From positions 547,988-584,653 of the forward strand of contig NW_001865061.1 of the NCBI RefSeq assembly GCF_000002865.3: a DNA stretch of 36,666 nucleotides, written 5' to 3'. Made by a program: the position numbers and the translations under genes. The notes beneath the pieces are model-generated. The model searched no databases, was not told where the DNA came from, and saw only the letters and a list, made by a program, of their open reading frames with translations. Positions 101 to 31,730 of this stretch are shown one piece after another; the first letter of the stretch is position 1; the number at the start of each line of letters is the position of its first letter. Origin of the DNA: Monosiga brevicollis MX1 (Eukaryota; Opisthokonta; Choanoflagellata; Craspedida; Salpingoecidae).

Positions 101-2292
101 ATGATGAGCAGTAGCAAGCCCACGCCCCCGCGGCGCAATAAAAAGGGCAAGAAATACCTCACGGATGGTAGCTCATCCGAACCAGAGTCCAATCCCAGCA
201 GCACGGCCACATCTCCGCGCTCTCTCCGAAAATTGGTTCGAGGCACCACCACAGACCTGCGCAACACGGCCAGCCCCAAGAGCAGCCCCCTCCTCAAACG
301 CTTCAACCTCTTTTCCAACCGGAAAAAGTGCGGCCCGCACCATCCCAACTCCCGTTTTCACCCTCGTCTCGCCATCCCGCCCTCCCAATGCAACACGCCA
401 CCCTAATAATGCCCGTCGCTCCCGCTGCTTTAGAAAAGCTCCTGCTGCGCCGGGAACTAGCGAGCGCCCACCCTCGCGCTGGCGCCGGGCCAACAATAGC
501 AACACTTCGATTAAACCGCCCCCCGAACCCCCAAAGGTTGGTGGTCCACCCTGTTGTTGACACGCGAAGATTGCATCACATGACCAAAACCGCGGTGTTT
601 CGGCGCACTAGCGCGCAAACAGATTTGGACATCAACAAAAGCAACAACCCCAGTGCCACCCCCCCACCTTTCTCAGCCAACAAAACCGCGCTCTCCCTCA
701 CTTGCCCGCTTGCTCCGCGCCGCCGCAGACCCACGACTTTGAGCCCCACGATGTCAAGCTCCCAACTTGGTGTGACTATTGCGATGACCTCGTTTGGGGC
801 CTGTTCCGCCCTTGCGTCCAATGCAGCGTGTGCGGCTACACGGCCCACGGAACTTGCGTCGAACACGTCGACCTTCAATGCCACTCGCAATCCTCCCCAG
901 CACAATCCTCGGCCGGGTCCTCCTCGGCCAGCGCCCCTGGCGTGTTGACGCCGCAAGGCAGCGCTAATACCCTCACAGAAGCAGAACAGCCTTGCCCCAC
1001 CACAACCCCCACCAACACTGGCCCTGCTGTTCGGAACCCCCACATTAGTCGCCTCGAGCGTAGCATTGCCTCCGTTTCCTCCATCAGCTCCATCCTCAGC
1101 TCGCAAGACGAAGGTACCACCACCGAGCAGCAACGCGCGCACCCCAAAGCCTCGCAGCCCGACGTACAGGTGGGCGGCCATGGCCTCCTCTCCTATCTCT
1201 CCGCCGCTGACATCCGTGCCAAAATCAACGAATTCAACGCCACCGCCACCGATGAACAGCTAGAGCTTCTGGTACGACCCCTGCCGTCGTCATCATCTCT
1301 CCGTGACCTTGCCCAACCCCTCCCCGGCTTCTCCCCTTGCTCTTCCACTGCTCATTCAGTCCGCAACCCTGCTGGTACGCAGGATGAAGTGGGTGATGAC
1401 AAGAGCTTCAAGGGTTATATTCGCGTTACCCTCAACCTGACCCGCCCCATTCGTGTCTCGCGCGGAGACTTGAGCATCAGCATCTCACCCGAGAACACGG
1501 ACACAACGGGCAGCCCCGAAGCCAGTCTACCCTCCCCCGGAATAGGCCCGTCCCGCTTCTTTCGAACCGGTTCTGGCGGGGGCAGTGGCCCTTACACCCC
1601 GTCGAGCGCCGCCTTTGACGCCGATACCTCCTTCTTCTTGCCCAAAGAGGTTTCCAAGGGTCTGCATGTCACGAGTGCCACCACCTCGCAAGAAGTCATT
1701 TCAATCCTGCTCCGCAAGTTCAAGGTCGTCAGCAACCCTCGAAAGTTTGCCCTCTACGAAATGAACCTTCTCACCGGAGGTGGGTGCTGCCGCTTTTGCC
1801 ATTCCGCGTTGACTCGTGTCTTTCGCTCGCTGCCGTATACGATGACCTGCCTCGCCTTGCTCCGCTCCACCACCATTGGAACCGGCTCTGTGCAGAAAAA
1901 CGTCGTCTCCGACGATTCGAAGAACCCTTGGCCCTCAAACTCCTTTGGGGCGGCAAGAACCGCGATCTCATCCTCTCGCTCGAAGAGTACAACAAAGACC
2001 AACATTTTCGCTGGGAGGAGTTTACCGACACGGAGCTGCACAACTTTTTGCGGATCCTTGAAGAGGAAGAGCAGGCTGCCGTCTGCGTCGTACGTCGCAC
2101 CCGCGCACCCTGGTTGCAAACCGACCTGCGCTGCCCACTCTGAACTTGCTTGCCCTTCTCACTCGTGTCTCGCTGGTCGCCTCGTACCGCGACCCCAATG
2201 AGCAGGTGACGGCCAGCTACGATAAGCGCCGTGCCGAGTTACAACGCCAAATCAGCATGTTACAAGGGCCTGCCCCACCTCTTTCATCCTAA
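101..2292 (+). CDS. RASSF1/5-type Ras-association protein (C1-RA-SARAH)
   Basis: Proposed exons are 101-327, 677-1271, 1383-1779, 1896-2089 and 2206-2292, giving 499 residues with phase-consistent GT-AG junctions. The basic, Ser-rich N-terminus is followed at about residue 90 by a perfect C1 zinc finger, H-x12-C-x2-C-x13-C-x2-C-x4-H-x2-C-x7-C, starting near 732. A YLSAADIRAKINEFNA segment precedes the Ras-association domain, which starts at FKGYIRVTLNLTRP, runs through FFLPKEVSKGLHV and SNPRKFALYE, crosses the third intron and ends at ELHNFLRILEEEEQ. The last two exons supply a short SARAH-like helix (ASYDKRRAELQRQI). RASSF proteins of this layout bind Ras-type GTPases and pair with Hippo/MST kinases through SARAH. 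Domain identity is certain. The first intron (328-676) and the SARAH end are the least certain parts of the model. The second intron (1272-1382) is 111 nt and stop-free, so its retention would keep the frame. Confidence 0.9.
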
Positions 2293-5940: not shown

Positions 5941-8900
5941 CTAGTCGGTCGTCGCGATGGTAGCCTTGCGCCGGCGACGCTTTCGATAGACGACCAGCGC
6001 AACACAGAGCACGAGAACCGCACTGGCAACCGCCAGGATGATGGCCAGCATCTGTTTACTGGCGCCACTGTCAGCCTGACTGTTTCCCTGCCTTGCACCC
6101 ACGGTGGTGCTTGCCTGCATTGTGGTCGGTGCCGGGGTTGTGGATGACGGTTTGAAAGCCGTCTGGGTCTCGCCTAGAACTTCCAATTGAAGGGCCCCGG
6201 CTTCAACGTAGATGTCAAAAAGGTCCGCCGTGCGTTTCCGTGAAAAGCTTAGCAAGACCCCGATGCTTCCAGCAAAAAAGTGCACGCTATAAACGTCATG
6301 GCCGGGCACGTAGTCAAAGTCACCTTCACGCAAAAGCTGGTCCAATTGCGCCCTCATGCCCGCCAGGGCAGAAGCGTTGCGCGCCAGCGCGGCATAATCA
6401 CCCGCCAATAAGAAGCTGACATTATACTCGCGAGGTTGCAAAGCACACGCCTCGCGCAAAGCCTGGCCAGTGTACGTAGCCAGCGGGCGAAACTCCACTG
6501 AAACTCCACTAAAGTTGGTTCGAGCCAGTGCCACCGCTTTGAGAGGTGAAAAGCAAACCGTCGTGCACGCGCTCGCGGGGTAAGGCGCCAGACACTGTGC
6601 CTCGCAATGATCGCGAATGCCAACCATGATGCGCTTCTGGTTGTATCGAGTCTCATCATCCACAAACACGGCCTGCACCAACCCGAGGCCAATGGTTCCG
6701 AGGCTTTGAACGGCGTCGACCTCCACGGTGAAGGACGACACAAAGTTGCGGCCGTTGGCGCTGTCAGCCCGCAAGTATACGGCCCCATCCGTCGCCACTC
6801 GAACCGTCTCTGAGCTCGCGCCCTCATGGCTGGCATTCTCGGCATCTGGCGCGATAAGACCAGCCTCGCCGAGTACGAGGTGGTGCAATTCAAAGTCACC
6901 GTTGAGCGGCAGTGCCAAGTTACCCGCGGCTAGGGCTGTGCTGGCAATCGTGAATTCGCAACGCAACTGGTCAGCACTTAGTTGGCCGCCCACAATCTCG
7001 GGCACAGTCACAAATTGTTGTGCGCCCACCACCACATCGATCATCATGGAAACATCATTCTCGTCGAGCACCGGCACGAGATCCAATTCAAGCCGCAAAG
7101 CTTCCTCGGCTGTCATCAAGGTGGCTGGATCCACCTGCTGCTGCAAAGCCATGGCAAGCCGCGTAACCGCAGCCCCGGCATCGTTGACATTAAAGCACCC
7201 ATCTTGATTGAAGTCGCCCAAAAGGTGCGCGTCCGGATCCCCACACGAAGAACGTGCAGCGCGACCTAGGTCTACCAGAGGTTTCGACCGGCGTCGACGA
7301 CTGTCGTTTGCTGCAGCATTGATTTGCACGATCATTGTGGCTGCGATGGAGTCTCGGTTGTTGTAGGTGCCAATCGGCTCCTGGGCTGTGCTCCCATCCG
7401 AGGTCGCCAGCGTAAATAGCGTGACCACGCGTGCCACGACATCAAGCAGTGCTGGTTCTGCCGTCCCAGCCGCACAAACGAGGCGAGCAAACTCCACCAC
7501 CGAAGCGGTACCGCCCGAGCCTACGCCGGCAATTCGAACCGTATGCTCTGCGCGGTTGATCAAACTGCTAAAATAGCCCGTCCAACCATGGCCGGGTAGA
7601 ACCTCAGAGCACATCAGCAGATTGGCATCAAAGGTCAAGATGACATCGATCGGTCCGAGTGGGGCTCCACCTGTGTTGACGCGCAAGGGAATTTCAACGT
7701 TGCCCGCGCTGTATTGCAGGTGCAGGGGAAGGCCAACTGGGCTGCCCAAGTCGATGTCCCCGACCTCTGGCGCCAGATTGCAAGCGAATGTGGCCGCGTA
7801 AATGGGTTCTGTCAAGTTCCCGGCCGCAAACACGCGCAACGTGTGCCATTGCGCCCCGTTGGCTTGAAGCACGACGGAGCCCAGGGCCTCGTCCACGGAC
7901 GCCGCACCATCACCCTCAATCGTAAAGGCTACAACATCTGATAAGGCCGGCCCCGCGCTGCCCCCAAAGTTTGGATAGAGGCGGGCGTCAGAAAACAATA
8001 AATCAAAGGTCGGCTGTGTAATCGTGCCAACCACCCCGGTCATCGTAGACGGGAAGGACCAAGCAGACACAGCGACCGCGTGCACCATGTCTGCGCTCAC
8101 CGCAATGGCCATGCTGACATTGATGCGTGCATCCAGCGACGCTCGAACGTAAGCTGTAGTCAGCGGGCTTGAGGCAGAGGCCCGCCGAACAATTTGCGCA
8201 TCCAGCGCCACGCTCGGATCGAGCAGTGCGCCTCCCTGTGCATCAACCACGCTAAAGAGCAACAGGGGGTCCGCATCTACAACAATCTCGGCCTGATTGC
8301 TGAGAATCAGCGTAGTGTGGACCTCTGCTGCCTGCCAATGCGGCGAGGCTCCATATCGATGTAGCACATCAACTGGTTGACGACCCGCAAAGGCTGGATA
8401 AGGCAGAAACTGGAGCGTGAGGTGCTCGCTGCGAACGATGCGCACGGTGGCTGAGGCTGTGACGTTGACGTGCATGAAGCTGAGCGTTAGGTTGACCTCG
8501 CCTGTGTACCCGTGTACATTTGCCAGCACTTGAAGCAGCCCATCCACGCGCTCAATGCGAACGAGTGACGCGTTGCTTGATGTTACTTGAGCCCGAGGAT
8601 CCATCGTCATATCCTGATTATAAGTGGGAAAGTGCAAGGTGATACCAAGCACTCCCTCTGTGGCCAGTGGGCCACTGTTGAGCCGTGCAACCACGTCGCC
8701 AACAACCGCAAGCACGGCTGGTGCAGACAGGCTTGCTCGGTCCGGATCTGGTAGGCGTACGTCGACCAAGGCTGGCGCAACCGTGGCAAGCGTGCGGTTG
8801 CAGACGGGGGGCTGCCACGTCACGGCCAGCACGTCTGCATCCGCTGCCGCGCTGCTGGAATTGCGGGCCTCAAGAAACCACTCGTTATTGTGAAACACAC

Positions 8901-11900
8901 GAATTAACGCCGGGTTGAGGGATGACACGACAATCCCGTCGTCTCCGTCGAGTCGCTGCTCGGTGTTATCACTAAAACGAGCCCGAGTGCGTATCACGGC
9001 CACCTCACCCTCCTGTGTCAGCGTGGCCGTGGTGTGCGCCACCAGCACGGGCGAGGTATCTGCAGTGCACTCGCCCACGACGTCCACGGTAGCAGCCGCC
9101 AGCACTTGGACCGAAAAAGCATCGATATGCACATCCGAATCACTGACCGATAGAGCCACATCCACTGCCGAGGCAGAAATGCTGGTGTCCGGCTGCACGC
9201 GCAGCAGAGTCTGGCCTGAACGCAAGCCCCGCACTACATATCGTCCGTGCACCAAACCCACCGAGGCCACGGCAGGCTCAAGAACAGTTGGTTGGGGCAC
9301 GAGATGCGTAACATCCACCGCTTTTCCATTAATCGTGGCCCAGGCACGCACAATACTGGATTGGTACAAGCCGCTGCAGCCGTCTATACGGTTGAGAATT
9401 GCGTCGTCCAACACCAGTCGGAGCGTGCCTGGAGCGGGGCCCAACACGCGCAGCGTGCGCTGAGCCATCAAGGTGCCCAGCGTGGCTTGCACCTGCACCC
9501 CCGTGGCTACGGTGTTGGCAGTTGTAGCCACACTGCAATCAGCCATCACCAATATGCCGGTCGTGTTGGCTGAGCACGTGGAGCTGGAGGAGGCCGCAAA
9601 GACGGTGCCATCGGCCCGGTAGGCCTGCACTGTGGCTAGTGCCGTAGCCGGTGCAGCGGCATCAAGAGCAGCGGTGTTCAGCACTTGATCTCGATCAAAT
9701 GCCAAATGCAAGGATCGAAAAGCGCGCGTCTCCACGATAATCGGGCCCACTTGCCGATCCTGTCCTCGCCAATGGAAGAGTGCGCGTCCTTCTAGTTGAA
9801 CCGGGTTGGCATTGGCGAGCGTTATGCTGCCTGTGTCAAAATGCACAAAGGCATGACCTGCGCTCGGACCAGCAGTGATGGTAAGGGTGCACAGCCTGAT
9901 GGGGGAGGGTAGCCGGTCCTCGTTCAGACCAGAACGGTCTGCCAGCGTAGCCACAACTGCTTGCGCCTGTCCATCCCCAGCAACCTCGCCAAACCAAGTG
10001 GCCGCGTCGAGGGTTAAGGCCATATCAACGAGGGTGTCAGCCTCGAACCGCAATGAAAATGCTCGCACCATCATAGGAGGATGAATCATGACGTCAATGA
10101 CAGCCACATCTCCAGTAAAGAGTGGTGCATCGCGCATGCGCAACGACACGAAGCCTTCTGGTGCCGGAGCGACTGTGGGCTGCTGCAGGACGGTGAGGGT
10201 GGTCGGGACAGTGAACGGCGGCAGCGTGTCTACCGAGGCCATGACCACGAGCTCACGCTCACTGGTGAACCAGGATGCAGGGATCTGGAAGGCTACCTTG
10301 CACAAGCCTAAGGAGCTAGCCGTCACGGTGCAGGCAGCACTGGTGCTGAGCGAGGGACCCCCCGTTGTCGTTGACGCCGTAATGGTTACCAGCGTCGAGG
10401 CGACGTGAGCTTCGTCACGGGCGCCGCGCACCTCGACGGCTAGCGAAACAGTGGCCGCATCGTGATATACCATTGGGTTGCTGAGCAGGATGGCGCGAAC
10501 GGAGGCGGCTGGGACGCGTTGGTCGCAGGCCACGCTTGCGCTGGCTCCCAGCTGCCCAGGCAAGTTGGTGGTAAAGGAGGCGGTACCACCAGCTGGCAAA
10601 GTAGCACCAAGGTGCACCAGCTCGACTCGCTCAAACTGTTCGGTAAGGTTATAAGATACAGCTCGAATAAGGCCGGCGGGCCCATGGTCCACTGCGGTCA
10701 AGCCCAGGTCAAGGGCGCCCGGAGCCAGGGGCGTGACTGGAGTAGGAACAGTGGTAGAGGGCATCGACGTGGGTAAAGCCGTCGTGGTGGGAGATGATGA
10801 TGTGGTCACAGGCACAGTGGTGGAAGAGGCAGTCTGTGAGGAAGAAGAGGATGAAGTGGAAGTGGACCCGGTGGTGGACCCGGTGGCGGACCTGGTGGAT
10901 GTTGTGGTCAGCAGCGTATCAGTAGGCATCACGGTGGTCGAAGTGATTGTGGAGGATGGGTTTGTCAACGTGCTGCTGGGACAGGTAGTCTCCTCGAGCG
11001 TTATAATATGCAGCGGTGAGTAGCCGTTGGCTCGATACAGCGGCAACGCTGGTGTGCCTGCACGCAGAGTTAAAAAGTTGGCCGTAGCATCCAGAACACC
11101 GTATTGGTAGGGTGTATCAATCACGTTTGTGATCAAACCGCCCGTGAGACGATCGACAAAGGTTTCGCCCTGTGCATTGGTCGTGCCGTGTAATACGGAG
11201 AGACCGACTGGGCCGTCCAGTGACCCCGTTCCGCGCACCTCGTATCGTCCCGCGCCAACGAAAGAAGCCTGCAAAAGTCCACCATTGAAGCCATCGCCCT
11301 TACTAAAGTTGACACGAAGCCCCGTCGTCACGTCAAGGGCTGCAAACTGGGAGGGGGCGAAGCTGCCTTCAAGGTCAAAATAAATGAGGGCGTCGTCGGG
11401 GGCCCTGACCACGTCATTCAAGCCACGATCCATGGCCAGAAGCTCGGCCCGAATTACCCAGCTACAACCTGCGTCCTCGGGCACGGCCCCTGCCGGAATA
11501 AAGGTGAGGTTGTCTATGAAATACAAATTTCCCAATTGAAGTTTATTGAGGTGGTTGTTGTCTTGGCCGTTGATGATACCATTTCCGTCGGCATCCATAG
11601 CGGCCGCAAGGGCGGCTGGAATATTTGCAGGGACACCACGGGCCAAGAGCTGCAGGTGGCACTGTACATCCCCGACATCAAATGCGCAGTCCCCGTCTAT
11701 ATCTCCGGGTTGGCGCTCAGTGGGGCAAGGCGTGGAGGGCCAAGCGAAGCTGCAGTTGGCAGCAAGCCTGGGCACCGCACGGCGCTCACGGGGCCGCGGC
11801 TGTCCCAGGGGCCGTGTCACGGGAGCCGTTGGCGCACCAAGGAGGCGCCGGCGTCGCCGATCAGCAGCCTCATGCACTTGCACAGACACGGCCCCTGCCA

Positions 11901-14900
11901 CAAACTCGACGGGTTTGCTAATGAGATCAATGCTCGAATCCTCTGTTTTGGCTTGCACCAGACGAGCCGTGAATGCTGCGATGCCCGCCGTGTGTGCGCG
12001 GAACCTCAGCTTTGCTAGTTCTGGCAGGCCGGCCAATGGCACTTCCGGGATACCGGAGATCACGGCAATACCAAGCTCGTCTCGCATTGTAAAGGTGCCT
12101 GACCCAAAACTGCTTCCCGGTTGAGCCGATTCGAGTTCCACAAGGGAAGGATCAAAATCAACCTCAAGGACAAACGAACCGAGGCGAGGTACACCCGAGC
12201 CAACACGGAAGCGCACTGGCATGGTTAGGGTGGCGCCCACCGCTACGGGCGACAACGGCAAACCGGATGTGGCCCCCAGGTCTCCATCGAGATGGGCTGG
12301 GTGCAGATTGGTTGGCACCGTGAGCAGGGCTGGCAGAGCTGAGGACGAGGCGCCTGCGGGCGCCACCAACAGCTGTACTGGTGCATAGTCGTTGGCGCGC
12401 AAAGTCGTGATGCCCAGCGCGGGATCGATCTCCACTGCCGTGGAGCTTGAAGACGCAAACGTGAGCAGGTCAGGATATTGAAGGGCAAGTGTCGAGCCTG
12501 TGAACAAGTTGGCATACGTCAGGACCGTGCCGTCAGACCAGGTTGTGTCGACGATAACCTGAGCTGTATCGTTGACCTGGCCCAAATAGGTGCCGGACAA
12601 GCTGATGGGGCCGGCGCGCAGGGCTGCATTGCTGAGAGCAGCCAGAGTCACCTCATCGTCACGCACCTCAACCTCGTGCTGCTGGCTCATGACCGTCTCA
12701 ATGGCGGCACCAAAGCCTGCAAGGCCCGCACTGAGGGGTTGGATGCGGCCCGTGTTAACGTCGAGGGTGGCTACTTCGGGCGTGAGTGCCATGACTGTCA
12801 CGTAGCTGGCTGTCAAGCTGACGCTCTGGCTTGCACCATCAGAAAGGCGTGCCGTTGCCGCCAGCAACAACTGCTGACGTGTGCCACCGGTGTCGGCCAA
12901 AACCAAACTCGTGTTCTTCGGGACGCTGTCTGAGCCCGAGTACACCGGATACGGCGTCGTGGATAGATGGAGCGAGGCCAGGGTGACCACTTGAATCTGT
13001 ACCGTGGCGGTAAAATTGATGTGTGTGAACGATACATTTATGGTGATGAGGCCGCCCGTTGCCCCGGCGGGCCGCAAAACGTCTCCATTAAGCGTGGCGT
13101 TGACCGTGGACAGTTCGGGTACGATCTCAAGTCGCATGCGTGCATCGCCGTTCATGATCTGAGGTCGAGTCGAAGCGAACACGAGAGTGACCAGCACATT
13201 GGCCTCGGTGCTCACTCCCAGATGCCGTGCCGGGTCTGCAGCTGTTGTAATGCGCGTCGGAAAGGCCTGTAGACGCGCCCCGACCGGAGCAGGAAGTTCA
13301 TGCGTCACCCGAGCCCGAGCTGATGCGAGCGTCACGCGTGATGTGTTGGGGGCTGTACAAGCGGCTGGCACTTGCCAGTCGACGCGTAATAAATATCCTG
13401 AGCCGGAGCCCGCCGCATAGACATCGCCGGAATGCGTTTGACCGTCCGCCTTGTCCACAATGCCAAGCACCCGCTCGTCTAGCGAGCTGAGGGTCAGCGC
13501 GGCGGTGTCGAGCTCCGCACTGGTGCCATCAGAAAAAATGCTGCGAGCAGCAACTTGAGCCTCGGCAAACTCCGACGTGAGACGTTGCTGGAGCGTCATC
13601 GTGGCCAAGGAAACTTGATCGCGAAACAGAATCGCGCTGGAAGGTACGGAGACGGTAAAACCCGTCAGCACGGTCACTTGCAACCCTTCCGTCAATACGG
13701 GCTCATCCGATGTGACGACCAGGGTGGAACCAACTTCCACGCCATCCACACGAACGGCGCGCACCTCGGTTGCCCCGGGGCTCTGGCCCACTAGCTGCAA
13801 CTGACCAGCGGCCGAGATACCAAGGGCCGCAGCCGTGCTGTTGAGGCTCAGCAGTGCTGGCAACAGCGGAGTGACATCCGACGCTGGGACAAAGACTCGA
13901 CTGCCCAGCCGCAGATCCGTATGCGCGCGGATGACAGTACGCTGATATAGTTGCGCGCACTCGGTGCCCATTGTGGTCGCTCCCTGAATTGCATTTAGGA
14001 CGGGGTCCGCAAGCTCAAACTGAATCGGCAGCTCCGGATATACTATGTAGAGAAGCGTGACGACCGAAAGATTCACCTGGTCCATGCTGATGATAATGGC
14101 TACGGGGTGGTCAGGATGTGCATCGGGACCGACCAGGATTTGCGAACAATCTGAGGTGAGCGTGACGCCGCTCGTATTGGTGCTACACGTAGCCACGCCA
14201 TGAAGATCGATCAAAGGGGCCTGAGGCAGGCCAGGGATCAACAGCGGTGCGATGTAAGCGGTTGTATTCAGTGCCGTTATTCGGCCCATGTGTACCAAGA
14301 GCATCGTTTCGGGCATGATGATGCCCAGGGGAGTGGGAATGGGCTCCAAGTGTACCTGGCCCACACCTTCAAGCGACGCGCCGGTGCGGTCCACTACAGT
14401 GGCGTTGGTTGGCCCTAGAATGAGAGTATCTGCCGCTTCGTCTGTAGCCGAGGTGATGCGTACGTGCACGGTGGCGTCTCTATTGGCCACGAGGCTGCGA
14501 AAGCTGACAACTGCCAGGCGCTCCATGCCCGTCACGCCGCGAACGGCCGATCGAGCCACACCCACCACACGCACCAGTCCGGCTTCGTAATAGGTCTCCG
14601 CCCGCCAGACATTTGTGTCGACCGTGACCGAGGTAAACGCCAGCTCCATCGCATCCACAGACAGTTCTATGCTCCAGGTGCTGAGTGGGAAGCGCGAGCC
14701 ATTGCCGTAAAGCGGGATGTCCAGCACATTGCCAGGATAAATCGGTCGCAGCGGAAGCCAAGCTTGTACCAGCGCCTGCGCCTGTGAAACCCATGGCGCA
14801 AATACCGGCACTGAGGGCAAAGGCAGCATTTGATTGCCGCTGTACGAGATCAAAGCCTGCACGGAGGACAGGCCTTGCAAAGAGGGCAAGGTGGAATCGA

Positions 14901-17900
14901 TGCAACGGAAAGCGTAGCCGTTCTGCCGCTGGCACTTTGTCGTGCGCAACCCGAGCGCGCCGAGATTCATCAGCAGGTTCACGTCCGATGTAGTGGCTGC
15001 ATATATATCGGTAATGGGCAAGCCGTACTCGTCCTGGAAGCGAACGAGGACGTCGAAGGCCACATCGGGATAAAGCACGGAAGTGATGACCTGTGCTGTC
15101 GTGGCTTGGGGGTTGGCAGGGCGCGCTGGGGCCGTGCGAGCCACGGACGTCGTGGATGTGCCGTAGGAAATGGCGATGCGGGCCGTTGTGCCATAGGGGA
15201 CGGGGTAAGTCGGAGCAAGTTCGGCACCATAGGACGTGCTACTGATACCCAAGACCTGGCTCACGGCCACTGAAGCGTCGGACGACTCAAAAATGGGCTT
15301 GGGGTAGCTAGCCGCGGGAGGCAAGGCTGGCACGCAAGTACGATCGGTTGTGGCTGTGGCAGGCACATCCTCCACTTCATCCTCATCGCACACCGTCAGC
15401 GGGGCACAAACTGTGTCACTCCACGCCTGGCACGCCGCAATCCGGTACGCGTGCAGTCCACAGCCGGCACAAAGGCGGCATGCACGATCCGAGGTCGCGG
15501 TTGCATTGGCCTCGACAAACTCGTTGGCTACACACTGTGTCAGGTTGGCACAGGCACGATCACTCGTGGCGGTCGGGGCTACACGTTCGTACTGTGCGTT
15601 GGTACAGACGGTCCGTGCCAAGCAGGCGGTGTCCTGTGTCAGCGTACAGGCGGTAAAAGCATACTCTTCTGTTCCGCAGGTGCTGCACGGTGTGCATAGC
15701 CGATCGCCCGAGGATGTGCATGGCGCACGCTCGTAGGAAACACCCGGGGTGCAATCGGAGCAGTTGGCACACTGCGTGTCGGCAAACTTGGAGCAGGGTG
15801 CAATTGGGTGGCGACCCGCAGGACAAGTCGAGCAATCGGCGCAGGCACGGTCCGAGGTGGCCGTCGCGTTGCGTGTTTCGTACTGCAATGGAGGCGGCTG
15901 GCACGTGGATAGGGCGGTGCAAGCGCGTCCGCTGGTGAGAGTCGGGCCTTCTGTCTCGTACTCGGAGGTTGCGCACTGGTCACCATTTGCCCAGCAGGTG
16001 AAGGACGAGCGCGAAATATTGAGCACGACCAGTGGGTTGTAGCCCGAACGCTCCAGCTGCACCGAGCCGCAAGAGGTCGGCAAAGGAAAGGAAAGGGGTT
16101 CGGCATACTTGAGTGAGGCACTCGAAGATGGACCGGCCAAGTGCGCGAGGCGAAGGGCTGAGGCGTGGCCGTCGGCGATGCTCTCTGTGAGCAAGTACAG
16201 GCTGGCATCATATGCGCCGGCCGGTAGAGCTGAGGCTGCTACAATCGCAAATGCGCCGGCGGATGAGCCAGACGAGTTGACTGGTACCATTTGCCACACG
16301 CCACCCTCATAGTTGCCTCCCTTGCTGACCGCCACGCGTTCACCTCGTTCCAAGACACTGCTGTGCATGGCCTGGGACGCACCGGCACCCTCCAGATCGA
16401 TGAAAAGGCGCGTGCGGGCGGTGACAGGGCAGTTGGCACGGGACACTACGTTGGCGCTGACGCTTAGCAGGCATCCAGTTGCGTTGGCACTTAGGACAGG
16501 ACTTGTGAGCCCAAGGTTGCGGACAAAGTGTAGCAAGCGCGCGTTGACAAACAACGCGTACAAAATGTCGGCCGCCTCGAAAGCGCCATTTCCGTCAGCG
16601 TCAAGACCTCGAATGGTATAGTCTGGCAGGGTACTCAGGTTGGCTGCGGCAGCGAAAAGCGTTTGTGCCCGATAAACATCGGCAATGTCGAACACGCAGT
16701 CGCCATTAACGTCACCCACGGCCCGAACGCCATTGGGACAGCTAGCACACGGTGGTGGGCTCGAGCACTTGATGGCGCACGAGCCCGTCTCGGTGGTGCG
16801 CCGTGAGCGGGTTTGAGCTGCTCCGCGTTGTCGGCGCCGGCGAGCTGGCAACTCCGAATCAGCGTCGACCCAAAAGGTCACATTTCCGGCGACAAAGGGT
16901 ACCTCGTCGCTCATCACTGTCTCGTCCACCGCCAGCAGAGTGCCACGGCCATCCAAGCGGCTCAGGCCTGTGGGCGCATTGGTCGATACTACCAAGGTTA
17001 ACACAGCCAGTTCAAGATTGGCTTGCCGGGGGAGCTGGCTGGCAATGCCGGAGATTTCAACCGAATCTTCAAATTCGTCCACCGGAGCCAGAAAGCTACC
17101 ACCAGCCCATGCGCTTCCCGGGCGCACCTGGGCTACGCGCACAACCGCAGCATCAAACTCGAGGCGTAGAGCAAAGGCCCCAATTTGCTGTGCTTGCCCG
17201 TTGATGCGAAGGGGGACGTGGACTGTCGCCCCGGGCACAACAGGCCCCAGTGGTGCCCCACTTGACGCACCCAAGTCAACATCAGCCGCCACCGGGTCAA
17301 GGTTGCAGTCAAAGCTCACGTTGGCCGCCACTGCTCGATCAGCGGCGGCTCGTACGCGTAAGACGAGAGGCATCGGAGCATTGCCGAGCAATGAGACCCG
17401 CAAAGTATGCGACTCCACTTCAGCCGATGGGCTGACCAGGGCTGGCGAGAAGTCGATCTCAGCCAGCACTAGGCCATGCCAAACTGGCCCTGACACGGTT
17501 CCAAAGCCGGGATACTGACGCCCGTCGTCAAAGACCAGGTCAAAGGTGGGGTAAGCCCCAGCCCCGATGGTCCCACGCAAGGTGGGTGAAAAGCGTAGAT
17601 TGCGCACGCTGGTGACATTGGTGGGATCTGTGTGCACCGTCAAGGGCACGCGAGGAGCAATCAGGCCCAGCAGCGAGGCACCCACATGCACGGGGTCAAG
17701 ATTGGAGATGAAGTCGGGCTCGGCGATGGGCGACACGCGAGCTGTTGCGGCGCTCCAAGACAAGATGTGGTCGACAACGCTACCACCAACGGCATGAGAC
17801 CAGAAGCTCACGCTCAGAGCAGGCTCGGTGGTGACGTCGAGATTGGCGCCATCGCTGCGCTGAAGCATGACCTGAAGCGTGCATTGCTGCCAGTGGCTGC

Positions 17901-20900
17901 TATTGCCGTAGGGCCTGAGGCCATCCACCACCATGGCTGAGCTACCCGCGTAGGCTGGATACGGGCGTAACGTGGCAGTCAAGCTCGTGGTTTCGACCAC
18001 GGACAAGAGTAATTGGGTGCTGACATTCGTGTGTGTAAAGCCAATGCGCAGACGGACCGTTCCGGACCCGCCTGTGGGACTGCTATAAACGCGAAAGGGA
18101 CCGGCTGCTGAGCGATTCATCGAAACAATGTTTTCGCCTTCGAGAATCGTGAGGGTGGTTCGTTGGTCCAGCGACATGTCTTGCATGTGGTCGGCATATG
18201 TCAGTGCTGCACTAATGGTAGCAATGGTCGGCAAGGCAGCGTGCTGCAATTGAGCCAGCGCGCTCCCGGGTACGGCCAGCACGTCGTGGCTCAGCTCGGC
18301 AGTGGCGCCAGAGGGCGGTGGCCAAGCAAGAGTCACGTTGAGCGTCGTTTCGGCCCACAGGGCGGGCGTGGCACAGCCCGCTGGCATCCACGCCACGCGC
18401 ACACGACCTTGACCAGGCCTATCGAGAGCCTGCACAGCCGTGCCGTTGTTGATGACCCTCAGGAATTCAGGGGAGAGCGACTCCAAAATCAAGCCTTGCG
18501 TGGGGCTTAATGGCAAACGCGTGCCGTCCTGAAACAGAACGGAGGCGACAATGCTTGCAACCTGGCCTTCTCGGGTGAGTACCGAGGTCCAGGATGCATT
18601 GAGGTGCACTGGAGTCAAGGCAGTGAGAATTTCACTGTCGGCGCTCAGCGCAACATCGGCCACCACGGCGGCATCCAGACGGCGCACCACGGCCGCTTCT
18701 TCGCTCATGGGCACAACAACAGCTGCAGCCCCAAGCCGCGGTCGATCGAAGGCCACCTCAAACACGTCTTTGCCAACAGTGGATGTGGGCCAAACACGCA
18801 GGTATCCGTCGTCGGCCATGACTGTAGCGATGCTAGCCGCGCTGGCACCCACTTCCACGAGGTGAGGGGCAAGGATTGAGCTCAGATCAACCGGGCGGCT
18901 CAGGGTATCTAAAGTCAGATTAGCGGTCACAGCGACGGCCAGGGGCTCAAAGGCGGCACAACTGTCAGTGCCATTAAACGGATTTAAGGGTGCTGGCAGG
19001 CGTCGGAGCACCGCTGTCGAGGTGCTCAGCGTGACATCGGTGAAACGCCATAGGCGGAGAGGAACGTGGGCCCTCGTGTCTTCGACCGAGATGTTCAGTA
19101 GGAGTGACGCGCCCGGTGCGGGCAAAGCCGTCCCAGGCAACACCAGCCGCGAGCAATCGCTGCTCGGAACGACGGCTACCTCTTCTGCCCCGATGATCTC
19201 GCAGACCAGAGCCAGGCCGTCCATTGTCGACGTACGATCGCTAAAGCTAGCTTGGTAAGCAATGCGCGCGGTACTAGCCAGCCCAGTTAGTGTAGCGGTG
19301 TCGACCAAGTCGGTGTGCAAGACCCAGGCGTGGAAGCCCGCCAAACGGGGCTCTCGAACCACGAGCCGACCCGTGCTCGTGGCTGGGCTCTCGCGGGCAA
19401 AGCGATCAAACACTGCCACGTTGGTTGACGCCATGCGATTGACTAGATTTTCGCGGCCAATGTCAAGAAAGTCAAGCACGGTGCAAGAGAGCGTCGCGTT
19501 GCCGGAGCGGGCCGCAGTAGTCACGCGGAGGTGGACGGTTCCCACAGCTCGCGCAGGCACGGCACCAACCGGGGCGTTGGCCACGTCGGCGTAGGTACCC
19601 AGGAATGCGAGGCTTTGAGCGCTTTCTCGGCTCTCAGTCAGAGTAAAATCGGCAGTCAGACTTACCCCTACAATCTCGATTCCAGCGCTCGCTTGGCAAT
19701 GGAGACGAAAGAGGCCCACCTCGCGGATAGCATAAGCATGCAGCGTGGCATCCACGGCATCGCCAGGGTAAAGGTCGTGGGCCGGTACATTGAGTGCCAG
19801 CGCGGGTAGATCAGCTAGGACCACATCGGCGGGTGCGTGCAGGTAGAGCGTGCTGATGGGTGCTGTGACAGAGGAGATGTTCGCAGCGTGGGCCTCCCCG
19901 ACGTGGACCACCAGCTCAAGACTGATTTGCGCATGAAAGAGGGCAATGGGCAAGTCCAGCTGTGCCATGCAGATGCCGCTGGGGCGGCTTGGCGAGCACG
20001 CTGCTTGCAAATCGCTCGCATTCACGCCATCGGGAAGCTCACCGAAGCCACGCGGTGGGCGCAGCGAAAAGCCCAAACGAGCATCGGCGGACACGTGTGC
20101 GGCGCTGCCGGTGGCAGACCGCCCTTGTAATTGCACAACCACTGTCGGGTCAGAGAACCAAAGTTGCGAGTCGGTAACCATGAAGGCTTCCACCGAGACG
20201 AGTGGCAGGATGGGCGGCACAAGCGTGAGGGCGGCCGGTGCAGTACGCTCTGCTAGCTCGGCGCTGACCGTGGCACTGCTCCCATTTATGACAGGACCAG
20301 CCACGTGCGTGAGGTTTGGGATCTGGCCGGCTGGCGAGGGGTACAGCAGCGCGTTTTGCACGATTATGCGCGGCTGAAAGCTGAAAGGTTTGGGGATATA
20401 TTGACAAGCGCGGTCCGAAGTGGCAGTGCGTGGAAGCACCTCGATCTCGTCCAGAGCGCACTGGGTCGCATTGTGGCAGAGTCGATCCGAGGTGGGGGTG
20501 CAGTCGATGGCCGCGTACTGATGGGCTTGGCAGGATTGACACGAAAACTGACAGCGAGACCCATATGTTTCACGGTGACATTGGCAGGTGTAGTTGTTGG
20601 TGCCGTCGACGCAGGTACCACCGTTGGCGCAGGCGTCGGGGATACAATCATCAATGTTGGTTGCACAGCGTGGCCCGGTAAAGCCGTCGGGACACGAGCA
20701 ATTGAAGCGATCGGCGGAGGTGTTGCACTGGGCCGTGCATTGGGCGAGTGCGGTAAAGAGAGCACGGCTGGTGGTATCGAGGTCGACGTACACCGACTGA
20801 TTGCGCGCACAAGACAGCATGCATTCCGTGTTGCACGGTGTGGGAGCGCGCTGAAAGGGCTCATGTGCACAGGGTTGTAGTTGCTGGCAGCCGACATCCT

Positions 20901-23720
20901 CGGCACAAGCAAGGTGGATGTCCCGGCAGGTTTCGTGGCAGGATTGGATGAGGGCCGAGCGATCATAGACATCTGTGCACGCACCACCATTGAAGCAAGC
21001 CTCGGAGGTGCCTGCACAGGTTAGCAGATGTTCGCAGTTGTCGCCCGTAGTCCAGTACGGGCATTCGCACGTGTATGCATCAGTTCCATCCATGCAAGTC
21101 CCGCCATTCTGGCAGGGCATGGGTGCACACTCGTCAACATTTGTCTGGCAAAAGTCGCCCGTGTACCCTGGGGGACAACGGCAGTGAAAGGCACGAACCC
21201 CGTCAGTTTGACGACACTGGTTGAGAATGCAGTCTACGCCGGCCTCATACAAAAGACGAGCAGTGCTGTTTGGGGCATTGCCGTCGCAGCCATCCAGACA
21301 GGTGGCGTCACATAGGGGCTCAGCTGCGCCGGCTTGCAAACAGGGGTGACTGCAGTCGGGATCGGCAGTGCAGGCAGCAAAGCTCTCTTGACAGACGGTA
21401 CGACATGGCGTGGGCTCGTCCACACACGTGGCCCCATTCGTACAAATAGAGGCGTTGCACCCAAGCTTGACCTCGCAGTGGTCGCCGTCAAAGCCCTCGG
21501 GACAGGTACAGCCATAAGTGTTAAAGTCTGCATAACAGCTACCCCCGTTGCTGCACGGGTCGTCGGCACACATGTCGACCATGTGCGCGCAGAGCTCGCC
21601 TTCCCAGCCGGGAGCACAGTGACAGGTGGCATTGTATAGACGCTCAGCAGTGCTGCAATCGTTCAAGTAACAATCAAGCACGGCAGCAAAGAGACTTTGG
21701 GCTCGGTGGCCTTCTGGAATAGATCCCGAGCTGCAGCCAAGGACGTCGTCCCGAGAGGCGTTGTAGAGGCTGATGAGTTGGAGGCACGGCAGGGCACGAT
21801 TGCACTCGGTCAGAGACTGGCAAGGCTCGTAAAGGTCGTTGCACTGTGCCGAGCAGCTCGGGGCTGGCTCATACAATTCTTCGCAGGTGGCTCCGTTTTG
21901 GCAACTGGTGACGTTGCAGCCAACGGCTGTCTCGCAATGAGCACCGTCATAACCGTGGGCGCAGGTGCATACAAACCCACCGTCGAGGGTGTCACGACAC
22001 GATGCGCCATTCAAGCACGGAGACTCGGTCTCACACACGGATACCTGCGCGAGGGAACGGGTCGAGCCCACACACGTAAAGACCGTGCGTTCTTGGTGAG
22101 ACATCGCACGAGGGAGGCAAGTGCGAAAGAGAGAGAGATGATGGTCTTACGCGCTCGCGGCAGTGGTCGCCCTCAAAGTCGGTTGTGCAGTTGCAAGACA
22201 GAGCATAAACCTCCCGCCCAGCGCCCTGTGGAGAGCAGTGCTGCCAGATGCAGGCACCAATCTGCTCATAGAGGGCGGAGGGATTGGCTACGTAGCAGCA
22301 CTCGGCCACGTTGTTGCATGGTGGATTCTCCTCTTGAACGACAAATTGCAAGACACTGAGACAGTTGCGCTCCTGCTGGGGACAGGAGGCACACGTGCTC
22401 ACGTCACAGCGTTCAGCACACGTGAGATCACGTGCGTGCTCGACACAGGTGCCATTGTTTGCACAATAGTCGTCGCTGCATGCGAGGGTGTTGTTGGCAA
22501 CCATGGTGGTTGCGTTTGGGGTGACGGTCGTGGTGACCGGCGACGTGGTTGCTGTGGCCGGTAGCTGCGTGGAGCCGTTGATTGTGGGGGTCGGGGTGGG
22601 ATGCAGCGAAGGGCTAGCTGTGGGGGTCTCTGCAATTGTACTGGTGGCAACCGGGATGCAGAACGCAGGATAGTCTGGGCAGCAATTGCCAAAGTCCATG
22701 CAAAGGTCATCGCACTGGCAATCGTCGCTGCTGTCGTAGCCTTCTGCCCCACAGCCCTTGTTGGCGCAGCGGCCGTTGGGGCCCGCGTGCGTGGTGGGCT
22801 CTTGCTCAGCCGTGGAGCTACCCACTGAGGGCGTGCGGGTGGCCACGGTGGTCGTTGGTGCCGTGGTGGTGGACACGCAAACCTGGCGATGCACGGTTGT
22901 GAAGAGATGAGATTCCAGGGCGACGCACAGCGCAGAAAAAAAAAAGAGCCAAGCGGCGAGGGTAATAGGAACGATAGTTTGATAGCAAGCAAGACCTGGT
23001 TGTAATCGCTGCAGCAAGACCCTTCGCCCGTGCACAAAGGGTCACAGTGACAGGGATGCGAAGGGTCGTAGGTGGCATAGCCACAGCCCTGAAACGCACA
23101 GGAGTTGATATCGCCCGAAGCTGCGTGGTGGCGATAGCATTGGATTTTCGAGGCAAGGGAAAAGTCAACCAGCCAGCTACATGATCAAGCGTGGACAACA
23201 CGAGGGTGGTGTGGACGACAAGCTCACTTGGAACAACAGTGGCTGTTGACGTCAGGTTGGGCGTCGACCGAGACTGTGGTCCAAAGGTGGATGTTGTGTG
23301 GGAGGCAGTGGTGGTGCTGATGGATGACGATGCACCGAGACAATACTATAAAAGGCATGTTCGGACAGGACGGATGAAGGACAATGAGGGGCAAGGGGAA
23401 TGTAGCACGCATGCACGGGGCGCGGGCGGGGCACACGCAAGCGAGTTGCGGGCCGGCAGCGGGGGAGGGACCTGGTTATAATCGGGACAACATGATCCTT
23501 CGTTGACACAGTACACGTCGCAGTGACAAGGATCGCTAGCGCGGTATCCACCAACTGTACAGTCGTTCTGAGCAGCACAGGTCGAGCGAGACTGGGCGCT
23601 GGTGGGCCAGGGCACGATGGTGGCGAGCAGTACTAGCAGTAGCACAAAGTGTGGTGTTTGGTCGTGCACGGCGAGCCATCTGGGGCTCTGCCGCGCCATG
23701 GCCATGGTAGAGCGGGCCAT
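5941..23720 (-). CDS. Giant type I membrane protein: SMB, EGF, TNFR-like and three TMEM132-like cohesin-dockerin units
   Basis: Exons 23720-23472, 23088-22996, 22882-22151 and 22044-5941, all phase 0, encode about 5,725 residues; the last exon is one 16.1-kb open frame. The ATG at 23720 is first in frame, with in-frame alternatives just downstream, and precedes a signal peptide (hydrophobic LLLVLLATIV core, cleavage near PTSA-QS). Order: somatomedin-B repeats; Thr-rich linker; alternating EGF and inserted-EGF domains (about 350-860); TNFR-like cysteine repeats; TMEM132-like unit 1 (about 910-2370); TNFR-like cluster (to about 2600); unit 2 (to about 4040); Ser/Thr linker; unit 3 (to about 5640); one transmembrane helix (about 5689-5712) and a tail of about 14 residues, YRKRRRRKATIATTD. 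Many N-x-S/T sites fit a glycosylated ectodomain. Likely a cell-surface or matrix adhesion protein; function is inferred from architecture only. Confidence 0.95.
6200..10729 (-). other. TMEM132-like unit 3 with cohesin and degenerate dockerin
   Basis: The third copy repeats the order: cohesin-like LFTGDVAVIDVMIHP, the TMEM132-like block IDGCSGLYQSSIVRAWA with VDVTHLV, BIG2-like repeats (YPAFAGR, FDLLFSDARLYPNF), a cohesin (about 7770-7310, DIDLGSPVGLPLHL), a RRRR site (about 7305-7290) and a dockerin-like region. The first calcium loop is good (GDFNQDGCFNVND). The second (LDLVPVLDENDV) no longer has regular ligand spacing. The unit then runs through a further beta-rich domain to the transmembrane helix. 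Confidence 0.83.
10730..10989 (-). other. Mucin-like Ser/Thr-rich linker
   Basis: About 85 residues made almost entirely of Ser, Thr, Pro, Val and Ala separate units 2 and 3. It is a likely O-glycosylated spacer. Confidence 0.85.
10990..15309 (-). other. TMEM132-like unit 2 with cohesin and dockerin
   Basis: This copy shows the TMEM132 resemblance best: CAQLYQRTVIRAHTDLRLGS, FVPASDVTPLL, RSIFSDGTSAELDTAAL, TLSSLDERVLGIV and a G-x-G-x-G-Y-L-L-R-V block follow the order of the animal TMEM132 middle region as I recall it. A cohesin (about 12300-11865) starts DGDLGATSGLPLSPV and contains VEFVAGAVSVQV. Five arginines (RRRRRLLG, about 11862-11840) separate it from the dockerin-like loops GDIDGDCAFDVGD and MDADGNGIINGQD (about 11705-11540). 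Confidence 0.87.
15310..16015 (-). other. TNFR-like cysteine repeats, second cluster
   Basis: At least eight short repeats of the type C-x-x-C...ATATSDRAC occupy about 230 residues between units 1 and 2. The repeated T-S-D-R-A-C ending marks each module. Confidence 0.85.
16020..20394 (-). other. TMEM132-like unit 1 with cohesin and dockerin
   Basis: About 1,450 residues of beta-rich sequence. An early cohesin-like part begins at LYPGDAVDATLHAYAIREVGLF. The middle holds TMEM132/BIG2-like blocks, including a YPAYAGS motif and FDLVFDDGRQYP. A second cohesin (about 17310-16850) starts DVDLGASSGAPLGPV and includes FDAAVVRVAQVRPGS and VEISGIA. A basic RRRRQR segment (about 16845-16800) precedes a dockerin-like pair of calcium loops, GDVNGDCVFDIAD and LDADGNGAFEAAD (about 16725-16555). 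Both loops have acidic or amide residues at EF-loop positions 1, 3, 5, 9 and 12. Confidence 0.85.
20395..20545 (-). other. TNFR-like cysteine repeats, first cluster
   Basis: Short repeats with C-x2-C, PTSDRLC and TATSDRAC signatures, resembling TNFR/NGFR-type cysteine repeats, lie between the EGF array and TMEM132-like unit 1. Confidence 0.75.
20550..22480 (-). other. Alternating EGF and cysteine-rich-insertion EGF array
   Basis: Canonical EGF domains of about 33 residues (near 22035-21935, 21575-21478, 21135-21035 and 20650-20550) alternate with four longer modules (near 22480-22155, 21925-21590, 21460-21150 and 21022-20665). Each longer module starts like an EGF (C-x4-C-x-NG-x2-C), diverts into about 80 extra residues, and returns to an EGF end (C-x-C-x2-G-[FYW]-x-G-x2-C). 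The inserts share a C-x3-C opening, an internal Cys cluster and a closing C-x3-[QNH]-C or similar pair. Several canonical members (for example NVDECAPMPCQNGGTC) look calcium-binding. Confidence 0.9.
22996..23571 (-). other. Somatomedin-B repeats split across phase-0 exons
   Basis: Exon 1 carries the first seven cysteines of an SMB domain (C-x5-C-x10-C-H-C-x3-C-x5-CC-PDYNQ). The eighth cysteine is the second residue of exon 2, at the family's usual spacing after the CC pair. Exon 2 (31 residues) is itself an SMB-like repeat ending CCSDYNQ, whose last cysteine is supplied by exon 3 (V-C). It lacks its own first cysteine unless a different acceptor is used. A third, complete SMB domain lies in exon 3 (about 22785-22665). 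SMB domains are compact disulfide knots found in vitronectin and other secreted proteins. Confidence 0.85.
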
Positions 23721-30613: not shown

Positions 30614-31730
30614 TTACGCCGCGGCCTGCATTTTCTTGGCGTGCTCAATGTCAGGCATCAAACAAGCCTTGAACTTTTCGTAGGCGGCATCGAGGTCGTC
30701 GTTGACAATGACGTGATCAAACTTGCCAGGCGTAGCTCCTGGACGACAAGGACAAGTGCGTGCACATCAAGGCATGAGAAACCAGCATAGCGCCTTGGCA
30801 CGAGAGAAGCAACCGGGCGTGACGAAGCAACTGACCGTAAACCATGGCGGATTCGGCTTCGGCCAGACGCTTTTGCAGGCTTTCCTCGGTTTCCGTGTTA
30901 CGGCTGCGGAGACGCTGTTCCAGAACCTCCACGCTGGGTGGCTGCACAAACACAAAGAGGGGTTGCATGTCCAGGTTGCGGACGTTTTCGCAGCCCTGAC
31001 GTTCAATATCCAAAATGCAAATACGGTTCTGAGCCGCCACATCCTGAACATGGAGGGGGGAGGGAACGGCGAGACGGCGGGGAGAAAGAGGATCGCATTA
31101 GCGTGCGAAAGGATGTAAGAATCGTACATGGGGCGAGGAGGGTTGATTTGAGAGGGAAAAAAAAAAAACATGACATACCGAGATGGCGCGCTTGCTGGTG
31201 CCATAGAGGTTGCCGCCAAACTGAGCATGCTCCACAAACTCGTCCGAGGCAATCATTTGCTCCATCACCTCCCGCTCCGTAAAGTGGTAGTCTGCATTCA
31301 TGGACATCGAGGCAGTACAATTGAGGGTGGATCCGTGATCGTGGTGTTGAACACGGAGAAAAAGGACGCACTGGGAAAGGGGACGTACCGACACCGTCCT
31401 GCTCGCCAGTGCGAGGCTTGCGCGTGGTGTGGGAGACGCTAAGAGCGAACACGCTATTGGGTTCATCCACGAGAACATCATGAGCTGGCTTTGCCCAGGA
31501 GCAACCAGGGCCAGGACAAGGAGGTGCTTTGAGGGAATCATGAACCAACTCGGGAAATTCCTTAAATAGACGCTTAAGGAAGGTGCTCTTGCCAGCACCC
31601 GAAGGGCCTATTGATGGGGGCGCCCCATGCAAAAATGAGGTGGTGTGCTGGCGCATACCGAGGCCAGCCTGATCGTACCAGAGACGACGATGGGCCGGGG
31701 TTGGTCCTTCTTAGCGGGAGGATTGGCCAT
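30614..31730 (-). CDS. GUK1: Guanylate kinase
   Basis: Six exons, 31730-31679, 31607-31550, 31453-31389, 31291-31179, 31043-30836 and 30738-30614, join in phase to a 206-residue protein, the usual eukaryotic length. It catalyses ATP + GMP to ADP + GDP in the cytosol. The P-loop GPSGAGKST is formed across intron 1. [24 protein letters not shown] spans introns 2 and 3 and contains the GMP-binding Ser, Arg and Tyr region. [24 protein letters not shown] and a LID-type [12 protein letters not shown] follow, then [14 protein letters not shown] near the C-terminus. Each motif is intact, so the splice model is secure. Introns are 71-153 nt. Confidence 0.97.

Follow-up and report, generated by a model that had tools for sequence, protein, structure and literature searches.

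The minus strand of the 36,666-nucleotide stretch of Monosiga brevicollis DNA analysed here (the window, G000:C34:547988-584653, within a genome of 39.47 Mb and 57 contigs) encodes a giant protein composed of three diverged units (U1 to U3; 26-28% identity). Judging from sequence comparison and structure prediction, we lean towards the view that it is a type I surface protein in which every TMEM132-like unit ends in a cleavable cohesin-dockerin clasp. Each unit consists of a TMEM132-type region containing its own cohesin (coh1), followed by a second cohesin (coh2) and a dockerin, and one chain totals six cohesins and three dockerins.

According to this proposal, a proprotein convertase in the secretory pathway would cut the flexible linker between coh2 and dockerin, and cutting at two sites would often free a short spacer. 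Once loaded with calcium, the dockerin would bind a cohesin, the simplest candidate being the coh2 that precedes it in its own chain, and the cut pieces would remain joined non-covalently. The mature product of this gene would then comprise as many as four pieces in a row, whose strong calcium-dependent joints could open under pull or at low calcium, with a logic like that of furin-cut Notch. We infer all three steps, namely cutting, binding of coh2 and dockerin in cis, and opening of the joint under force.

Domain composition of the three units

BLASTP comparison gave 27% identity between U1 and U2 (E 4e-42), 28% between U1 and U3 (E 8e-55) and 26% between U2 and U3 (E 2e-24), which together with Pfam matches confirmed the three-unit giant surface protein described in an initial annotation of the window. 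Each unit was there composed of TMEM132 blocks, a cohesin and a dockerin. This composition is supported by profiles, by the predicted fold of coh2 and by recurrence of the same order in relatives, but each unit has two cohesins instead of one. The following features were assigned:

19402..19797 (-), U1 coh1, TMEM132-type cohesin, aa 770-901 (2.8e-19)
16855..17304 (-), U1 coh2, aa 1601-1750 (profiles; predicted fold)
16798..16842 (-), U1, sites of convertase type in the linker joining coh2 to dockerin: RRRR (aa 1755), RSRR (aa 1766) (motif)
16513..16725 (-), U1 dockerin, aa 1794-1864, two calcium loops (profile, loops)
16000..16512 (-), U1 conserved post-dockerin beta domain, aa 1865-2035
14377..14775 (-), U2 coh1, aa 2444-2576 (6.4e-28, the stretch being also in the profile; 5e-15 by another profile search)
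13354..13686 (-), U2 Ig_TMEM132_6th, aa 2807-2917 (Pfam)
11869..12309 (-), U2 coh2, aa 3266-3412 (profiles)
11779..11859 (-), U2, sites of convertase type in the corresponding linker: RRRRR (aa 3416), RERR (aa 3439) (motif)
11506..11715 (-), U2 dockerin, aa 3464-3533 (profile, loops)
10969..11505 (-), U2 post-dockerin domain, aa 3534-3712
9859..10128 (-), U3 coh1, aa 3993-4082 (7.8e-10)
9436..9693 (-), U3 Ig_TMEM132_4th, aa 4138-4223 (under curated cut-off)
7330..7779 (-), U3 coh2, aa 4776-4925 (1.3e-33)
7252..7299 (-), U3, site of convertase type RRRR (aa 4936), with a minimal RAAR at aa 4948 (motif)
7006..7227 (-), U3 dockerin, aa 4960-5033 (profile), calcium loop 2 judged degenerate by eye

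The Pfam cohesin match of U1 passes the curated cut-off (7e-6) and that of U2 lies under it (0.004), while no cohesin was listed for U3 at E<=1 in a search with the whole protein; a shorter U3 piece matched at E<=0.1, as did all 16 aligned units (PF00963). Structure comparison assigned the predicted fold of U1 coh2 to the cohesin fold, the matches listed being cohesins. Among the TMEM132 domains, the 6th was found in U2 over the cut-off (2e-11) and the 4th in U3 under it (2.6e-4; 21.3 of 27 bits). A cohesin-like coh1 stands directly ahead of the BIG domains in all three units, the U2 stretch being itself part of the profile used; PF23039 was matched in relatives, under the cut-off only. For the conserved region preceding the cohesin, the 2nd TMEM132 domain appeared under the cut-off in paralogues and was unlisted for the window protein.

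A Pfam search with the window protein at E<=1 listed no Dockerin_1, and PF00404 was matched at E<=0.1 by 8 of the 16 aligned units, U1 not among them. Among PDB sequences, the family profile picks out bacterial dockerin chains (1.3e-5), and a regular expression recognised calcium loops with acidic ligands in 52 (loop 1) and 51 (loop 2) of 54 distinct dockerins. Profile searches thus supported cohesin, TMEM132 and dockerin, partly via relatives and in some units under the cut-off. A paired calcium-loop dockerin, previously assigned to every unit, holds for U1 with its two loops and not for U3.

Convertase-type sites between coh2 and dockerin

Basic sites were counted in 43 proteins (P0001-P0030 plus 13 frames taken from the genome), a set holding 144 cohesin matches, 85 dockerins and 84 cohesin-dockerin units, 81 of them distinct; a receptor tyrosine phosphatase with a similar cassette, described below, was left out. 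The convertase motif R-x-[KR]-R was present in 68 of the 81 distinct linkers (window 3/3, elsewhere in the genome 9/9, database relatives 56/69); a smaller earlier tally gave 51/53. Looser motifs were more frequent still, with RxxR in 73/81 and either [KR]R or RxxR in 80/81, and two clusters of [KR]R were found in 68/81. The strict motif occurred 113 times in 4,417 linker residues compared to 25 times in 167,979 other residues, a 172-fold difference in density. Within the 5,387-amino-acid window frame (exons 1-3 left out), it is confined to the three linkers, except for a basic stretch past the membrane helix. With P1 fixed as R and a basic P2 or P4 demanded by definition, the last site of the linker had R at P4 in 67/80 and K or R at P2 in 75/80, while P3 was variable. 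The second site of U3 is the minimal RAAR, which aligns with an R..R invariant across 16/16 sequences (alignment A1). A single basic cluster was seen near coh2 in the paralogues on contigs C31 and C10, and near the dockerin in that on C27.

The sites go with the dockerin: in cohesins without a dockerin the motif followed within 95 residues in only 1/55 (60 matches minus duplicates and 3 truncated ones), as against 68/81 with a dockerin. The Fisher p of 4e-24 is overstated, as many of the proteins are orthologues or paralogues and not phylogenetically independent. The linker is predicted to be flexible (predicted local distance difference test, pLDDT, mostly <50). Flexible secreted linkers bearing R-x-[KR]-R or RxxR look like proprotein convertase substrates.

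On the lines of the initial annotation, the chain would stay uncut and clasp within one molecule or between cells; the basic clusters would then merely touch acidic polymers. The cohesin and dockerin domains are indeed real and the linkers are rich in arginine, as such an uncut chain would have it. However, when the linkers were shuffled with composition kept (500 shuffles), a mean of 9.1 and a maximum of 17 of 81 had the motif; the R-x-[KR]-R spacing is thus far above same-composition shuffles and unneeded for a polymer-binding patch, and we regard this explanation as very improbable. The idea of clasping as such is plausible on the sequence evidence and strengthened by the convertase sites between the partners, which had been overlooked.

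It is improbable, if slightly less so, that the sites exist for the release of pieces or short peptides, by shedding or as a peptide messenger, with cohesin and dockerin not holding the chain. A spacer of 8-93 amino acids between two sites in 70/81 units would suit such a release, and the membrane anchor is, by sequence, on the last piece only. Yet the spacer is unconserved in the 16-unit alignment, unlike a peptide messenger, and a dockerin is retained after nearly every cut.

Cysteine counts mostly speak against a disulfide spanning the cut. Coh2 is cysteine-free in 70/81 units and the linker ahead of the last basic site in 81/81. From past this site to 185 residues beyond the dockerin the number of cysteines is even in 71/81, both with (44/51) and without (27/30) a cysteine just before coh2. 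By parity reasoning, a disulfide bridging the cut is therefore not expected in most units, and U1 and U2 of the window fit this pattern. A convertase-like gene is present in the genome: subtilase (S8) pieces were found at C56:960648-962324, one of which contains stops as expected across introns, with a P domain 184 bases further. PCSK-family proteins not grouping with bilaterian furins have been reported for a choanoflagellate, and the consensus shared by PCSKs is given as R-X-R/K-R (PMC2770060).

Candidate partners, paralogues and relatives

The partner of the dockerin was addressed by structure prediction and by comparison of divergence. AlphaFold prediction of coh2, linker and dockerin alone (281 amino acids) gave a predicted template modelling score (pTM) of 0.63. 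By our own rough estimates about 0.48 would be expected if the dockerin were placed independently and about 0.66 if it were placed; this value, from pTM alone, is a rough hint. In a mirror-tree test on distances among 72 units (of 2,556 pairs, the 2,473 divergent ones), dockerin divergence correlated with coh1 (r 0.69; partial r 0.39), the post-dockerin domain (0.63; 0.21), coh2 (0.55; 0.28) and the stretch after coh1 (0.49; 0.03). This result does not single out coh2 as the dockerin partner and leans, if anywhere, to coh1.

An alternative is binding in trans, in which the chain is cut and the freed dockerin binds coh1 or coh2 of another molecule, the cut thus preparing it for cell-cell adhesion, polymerisation or an exchange between chains. 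In favour of this, every chain carries six cohesins and three dockerins, dockerin divergence strongly tracks coh1, and paralogues exist at eight further genome loci. Against it, 84 of 85 dockerins lie within 400 amino acids directly after a cohesin of the same chain (partly by selection; the exception begins 28 amino acids into a fragment), and attachment of the N-terminal pieces would hang on other molecules. We consider trans binding unlikely, and take a joint to the adjacent coh2 as the simplest reading.

Several observations besides the mirror-tree result speak against such a cleavable clasp in every unit. Strict motifs are missing from 13/81 linkers, all from database relatives, although 12 of these have RR, KR or RxxR; in P0018-P0021 and P0023 the final unit offers KR and KK only, and the linker of P0030 (2656-2888), where the dockerin is weak, has zero basic sites. 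In the window itself, U3 has a dockerin whose second calcium loop looks degenerate by eye, and two cysteines in its coh2 with an odd count past the cut make a bridging disulfide possible there. On contig C11 (L036), a coh2 is followed by basic sites without a recognised dockerin, which is possibly a decayed clasp.

As the window's own units have diverged, paralogues were examined too. The genome has 14 places that match the 4th TMEM132 domain, of which 13 pass the cut-off and the window's own falls under it; the 6th domain was found at 2 places and the cohesin at 6. Dockerin_1 matched at 13 places (E<=1), 6 over the cut-off, with one of these 6 inside the phosphatase gene. On C38, C27, C31, C10 and C22, 4th-domain and dockerin matches lie in same-length open frames about 2.4-2.8 kb apart. 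In all, nine distinct coh2-dockerin units were located outside the window at eight loci, on C10, C22 (two loci, three units), C27, C31, C38, C40 and C54. Paralogue L046 on C38 shows the order 2nd (under cut-off), 4th, 5th, 6th (under cut-off) and dockerin. Weak dockerin matches on C35, C31 (twice, calmodulin-like) and C56 were discounted, with no cohesin by eye and no nearby convertase motif, the single RGRR of the C56 match lying 195 codons upstream beyond stops. For a weak match on C11, a convertase motif was absent upstream.

Protein-database queries spanning coh2 and dockerin returned 15 and 16 rows, P0003 and P0012 occurring twice, and hence 29 proteins. All of these (P0002-P0030) carry one to four cohesin-dockerin units by our own profiles, partly by selection, and precomputed Pfam matches show cadherin domains in many of them. 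For P0012, Pfam gave the 4th and 5th TMEM132 domains, cohesin and cadherin, and under the cut-off the 3rd, 6th and dockerin, with the best stretches in different units. Separately, coh2-like cohesins of P0029 at 2787 and 4523 have neither dockerin nor RxKR.

Some neighbouring units in the same frame are near-identical in DNA sequence, namely in L046 (99.8% over 4,283 bp), in L036 (98.2% over 3,917 bp) and in L001/L002 on C40 (98.9% over 1,309 bp). This suggests recent duplication or gene conversion, or assembly effects. No comparable DNA match was found between the window's own units.

A similar cassette is present in a receptor tyrosine phosphatase encoded by a 4,334-amino-acid frame on C4 (G000:C4:35169-48170; L040, L041). 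It contains TNFR repeats, a cohesin-like stretch, RRRR, RDRR, RRRR, Dockerin_1, five fn3 and two tyrosine phosphatase domains. Its cohesin lies under the Pfam cut-off (E 0.0026), was missed by our own family profile and matched no PDB sequence; its Dockerin_1 (3.2e-5) was over the cut-off in two Pfam searches and under it in another. No TMEM132 domain was listed at E<=0.01, and no relative of the cassette was found at E<=0.01 among 8,000 scored protein-database candidates.

Known systems and gene structure

The human proteins TMEM132A-E are described as a cohesin followed by BIG/Ig domains (PMC6030884). Likeness to them rests on the 4th, 5th and 6th (under the cut-off also 2nd and 3rd) Pfam domains in window units or relatives, the 4th and 5th being over the cut-off in relatives. 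In contrast to TMEM132, the window protein has three units per chain, an extra stretch past the 6th domain, a second cohesin, a dockerin and convertase-type sites, and its cytoplasmic tail is only about 15 residues long. The WIRS motif needs an F. Both the PP1-docking (RVxF) and WIRS motifs of the TMEM132 cytoplasmic region are absent from this 15-residue tail, which lacks the F required by both; RVxF is the docking motif given in PMC6030884.

A pre-animal form of this architecture, as initially suggested, is supported but not new: TMEM132 domains in choanoflagellate and sponge cadherins, making the architecture older than animals, were published in 2017 (PMC6030884). The lefftyrin, coherin and hedgling cadherins are said there to hold all five TMEM132 domains, cohesins having been reported in them earlier (PMC6030884). 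Many of the cadherin-bearing database relatives carry the same coh2-site-dockerin cassette, whereas the window protein, unlike lefftyrin, coherin and hedgling, had no cadherin repeat (PF00028) listed at E<=1.

Cohesin-dockerin contacts of bacteria are ranked among the strongest reported, and the strength of TMEM132 cohesin binding is left open in the same account, as dockerin homologues were undetectable in vertebrates (PMC6030884). Compared with the cellulosomal pair, both partners here occur in one chain of eukaryotic surface proteins with cutting sites between them, and 51/54 dockerins have a Cys at loop position 6. Dockerin-like modules outside bacteria were reportedly covered by Peer in 2009, and earlier authors may already have come across the dockerins described here. 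In the open-access literature, we found no description of a second cohesin regularly paired with a dockerin of the same chain, nor of conserved convertase sites between them; the latter seem to be new.

Notch is likewise cut by furin and held by a noncovalent calcium-dependent contact (PMC3376496). The likeness to its S1-cut heterodimer lies in the logic only, i.e. a furin-type cut and a noncovalent calcium-dependent joint, which here would be formed by cohesin and dockerin and be repeated. No Notch repeat (LNR) or heterodimerisation domain was among the Pfam matches of the window protein. With some reservation, one can speculate that a pre-animal adhesion system used the cohesin-dockerin pair of the cellulosome as an internal press-stud that depends on calcium and spans a convertase cut. 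The device would recur along giant surface proteins and be present also in a receptor tyrosine phosphatase, so that cell-cell pull or calcium loss would open fixed joints and could signal. If true, the mechanical logic of Notch was made from different parts, which would suggest a route of origin of cut-but-held surface receptors independent of Notch. Having both partners in one chain, with conserved cutting sites between them, makes the question of TMEM132 cohesin binding directly testable.

The gene runs on the minus strand from an ATG at 23720, which coincides with the end coordinate of the initial annotation, to a stop at 5941. An uninterrupted open reading frame (ORF) of 5,387 amino acids covers 5941-22104, the frame itself being open from 22146 to 5941. 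Exon 4 was assigned to 22044-5941 (5,367 codons plus stop) because of a GTAAG donor at 22150 and an acceptor GCGCAG ahead of GTATCC, with junctions set by eye; the first Met of the ORF is probably intronic. Exon 2 is short and ends at 22996, its acceptor position not being fixed. Further features of the gene are:

23472..23720 (-), exon 1, encoding by eye a hydrophobic N-terminus plus one more SMB-like domain
22151..22882 (-), exon 3, Somatomedin-B (SMB) domain (PF01033, 1.7e-7), linker and EGF-like stretch (by eye), junctions by eye
5941..22044 (-), exon 4, main exon, 16.1 kb, acceptor by eye
15295..15843 (-), TNFR/NGFR cysteine-rich repeats between U1 and U2 (PF00020, 4.2e-16)
5986..6051 (-), transmembrane helix, aa 5352-5373, then a short basic tail (by eye)

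The upstream exons thus encode one SMB domain found by Pfam and one or two additional ones seen by eye. The chain continues with EGF repeats (six stretches, Pfam), U1, TNFR-type repeats, U2, a Ser/Thr-rich stretch, U3, the membrane helix and the short basic tail, the stretch, helix and tail being assigned by eye. The SMB, EGF and TNFR-type domains (Pfam) and the C-terminal helix were absent from the initial annotation. Bacterial contamination or a chance ORF is ruled out by the intron-separated exons (junctions by eye) with SMB, EGF and TNFR domains, and is also contradicted by the 39.5-Mb genome and paralogues at eight loci.

Elsewhere in the window, a RASSF-like neighbour gene with C1 and Ras-association domains lies at 705-2201 (+), and a frame at 31006-31656 (-) resembles guanylate kinase.
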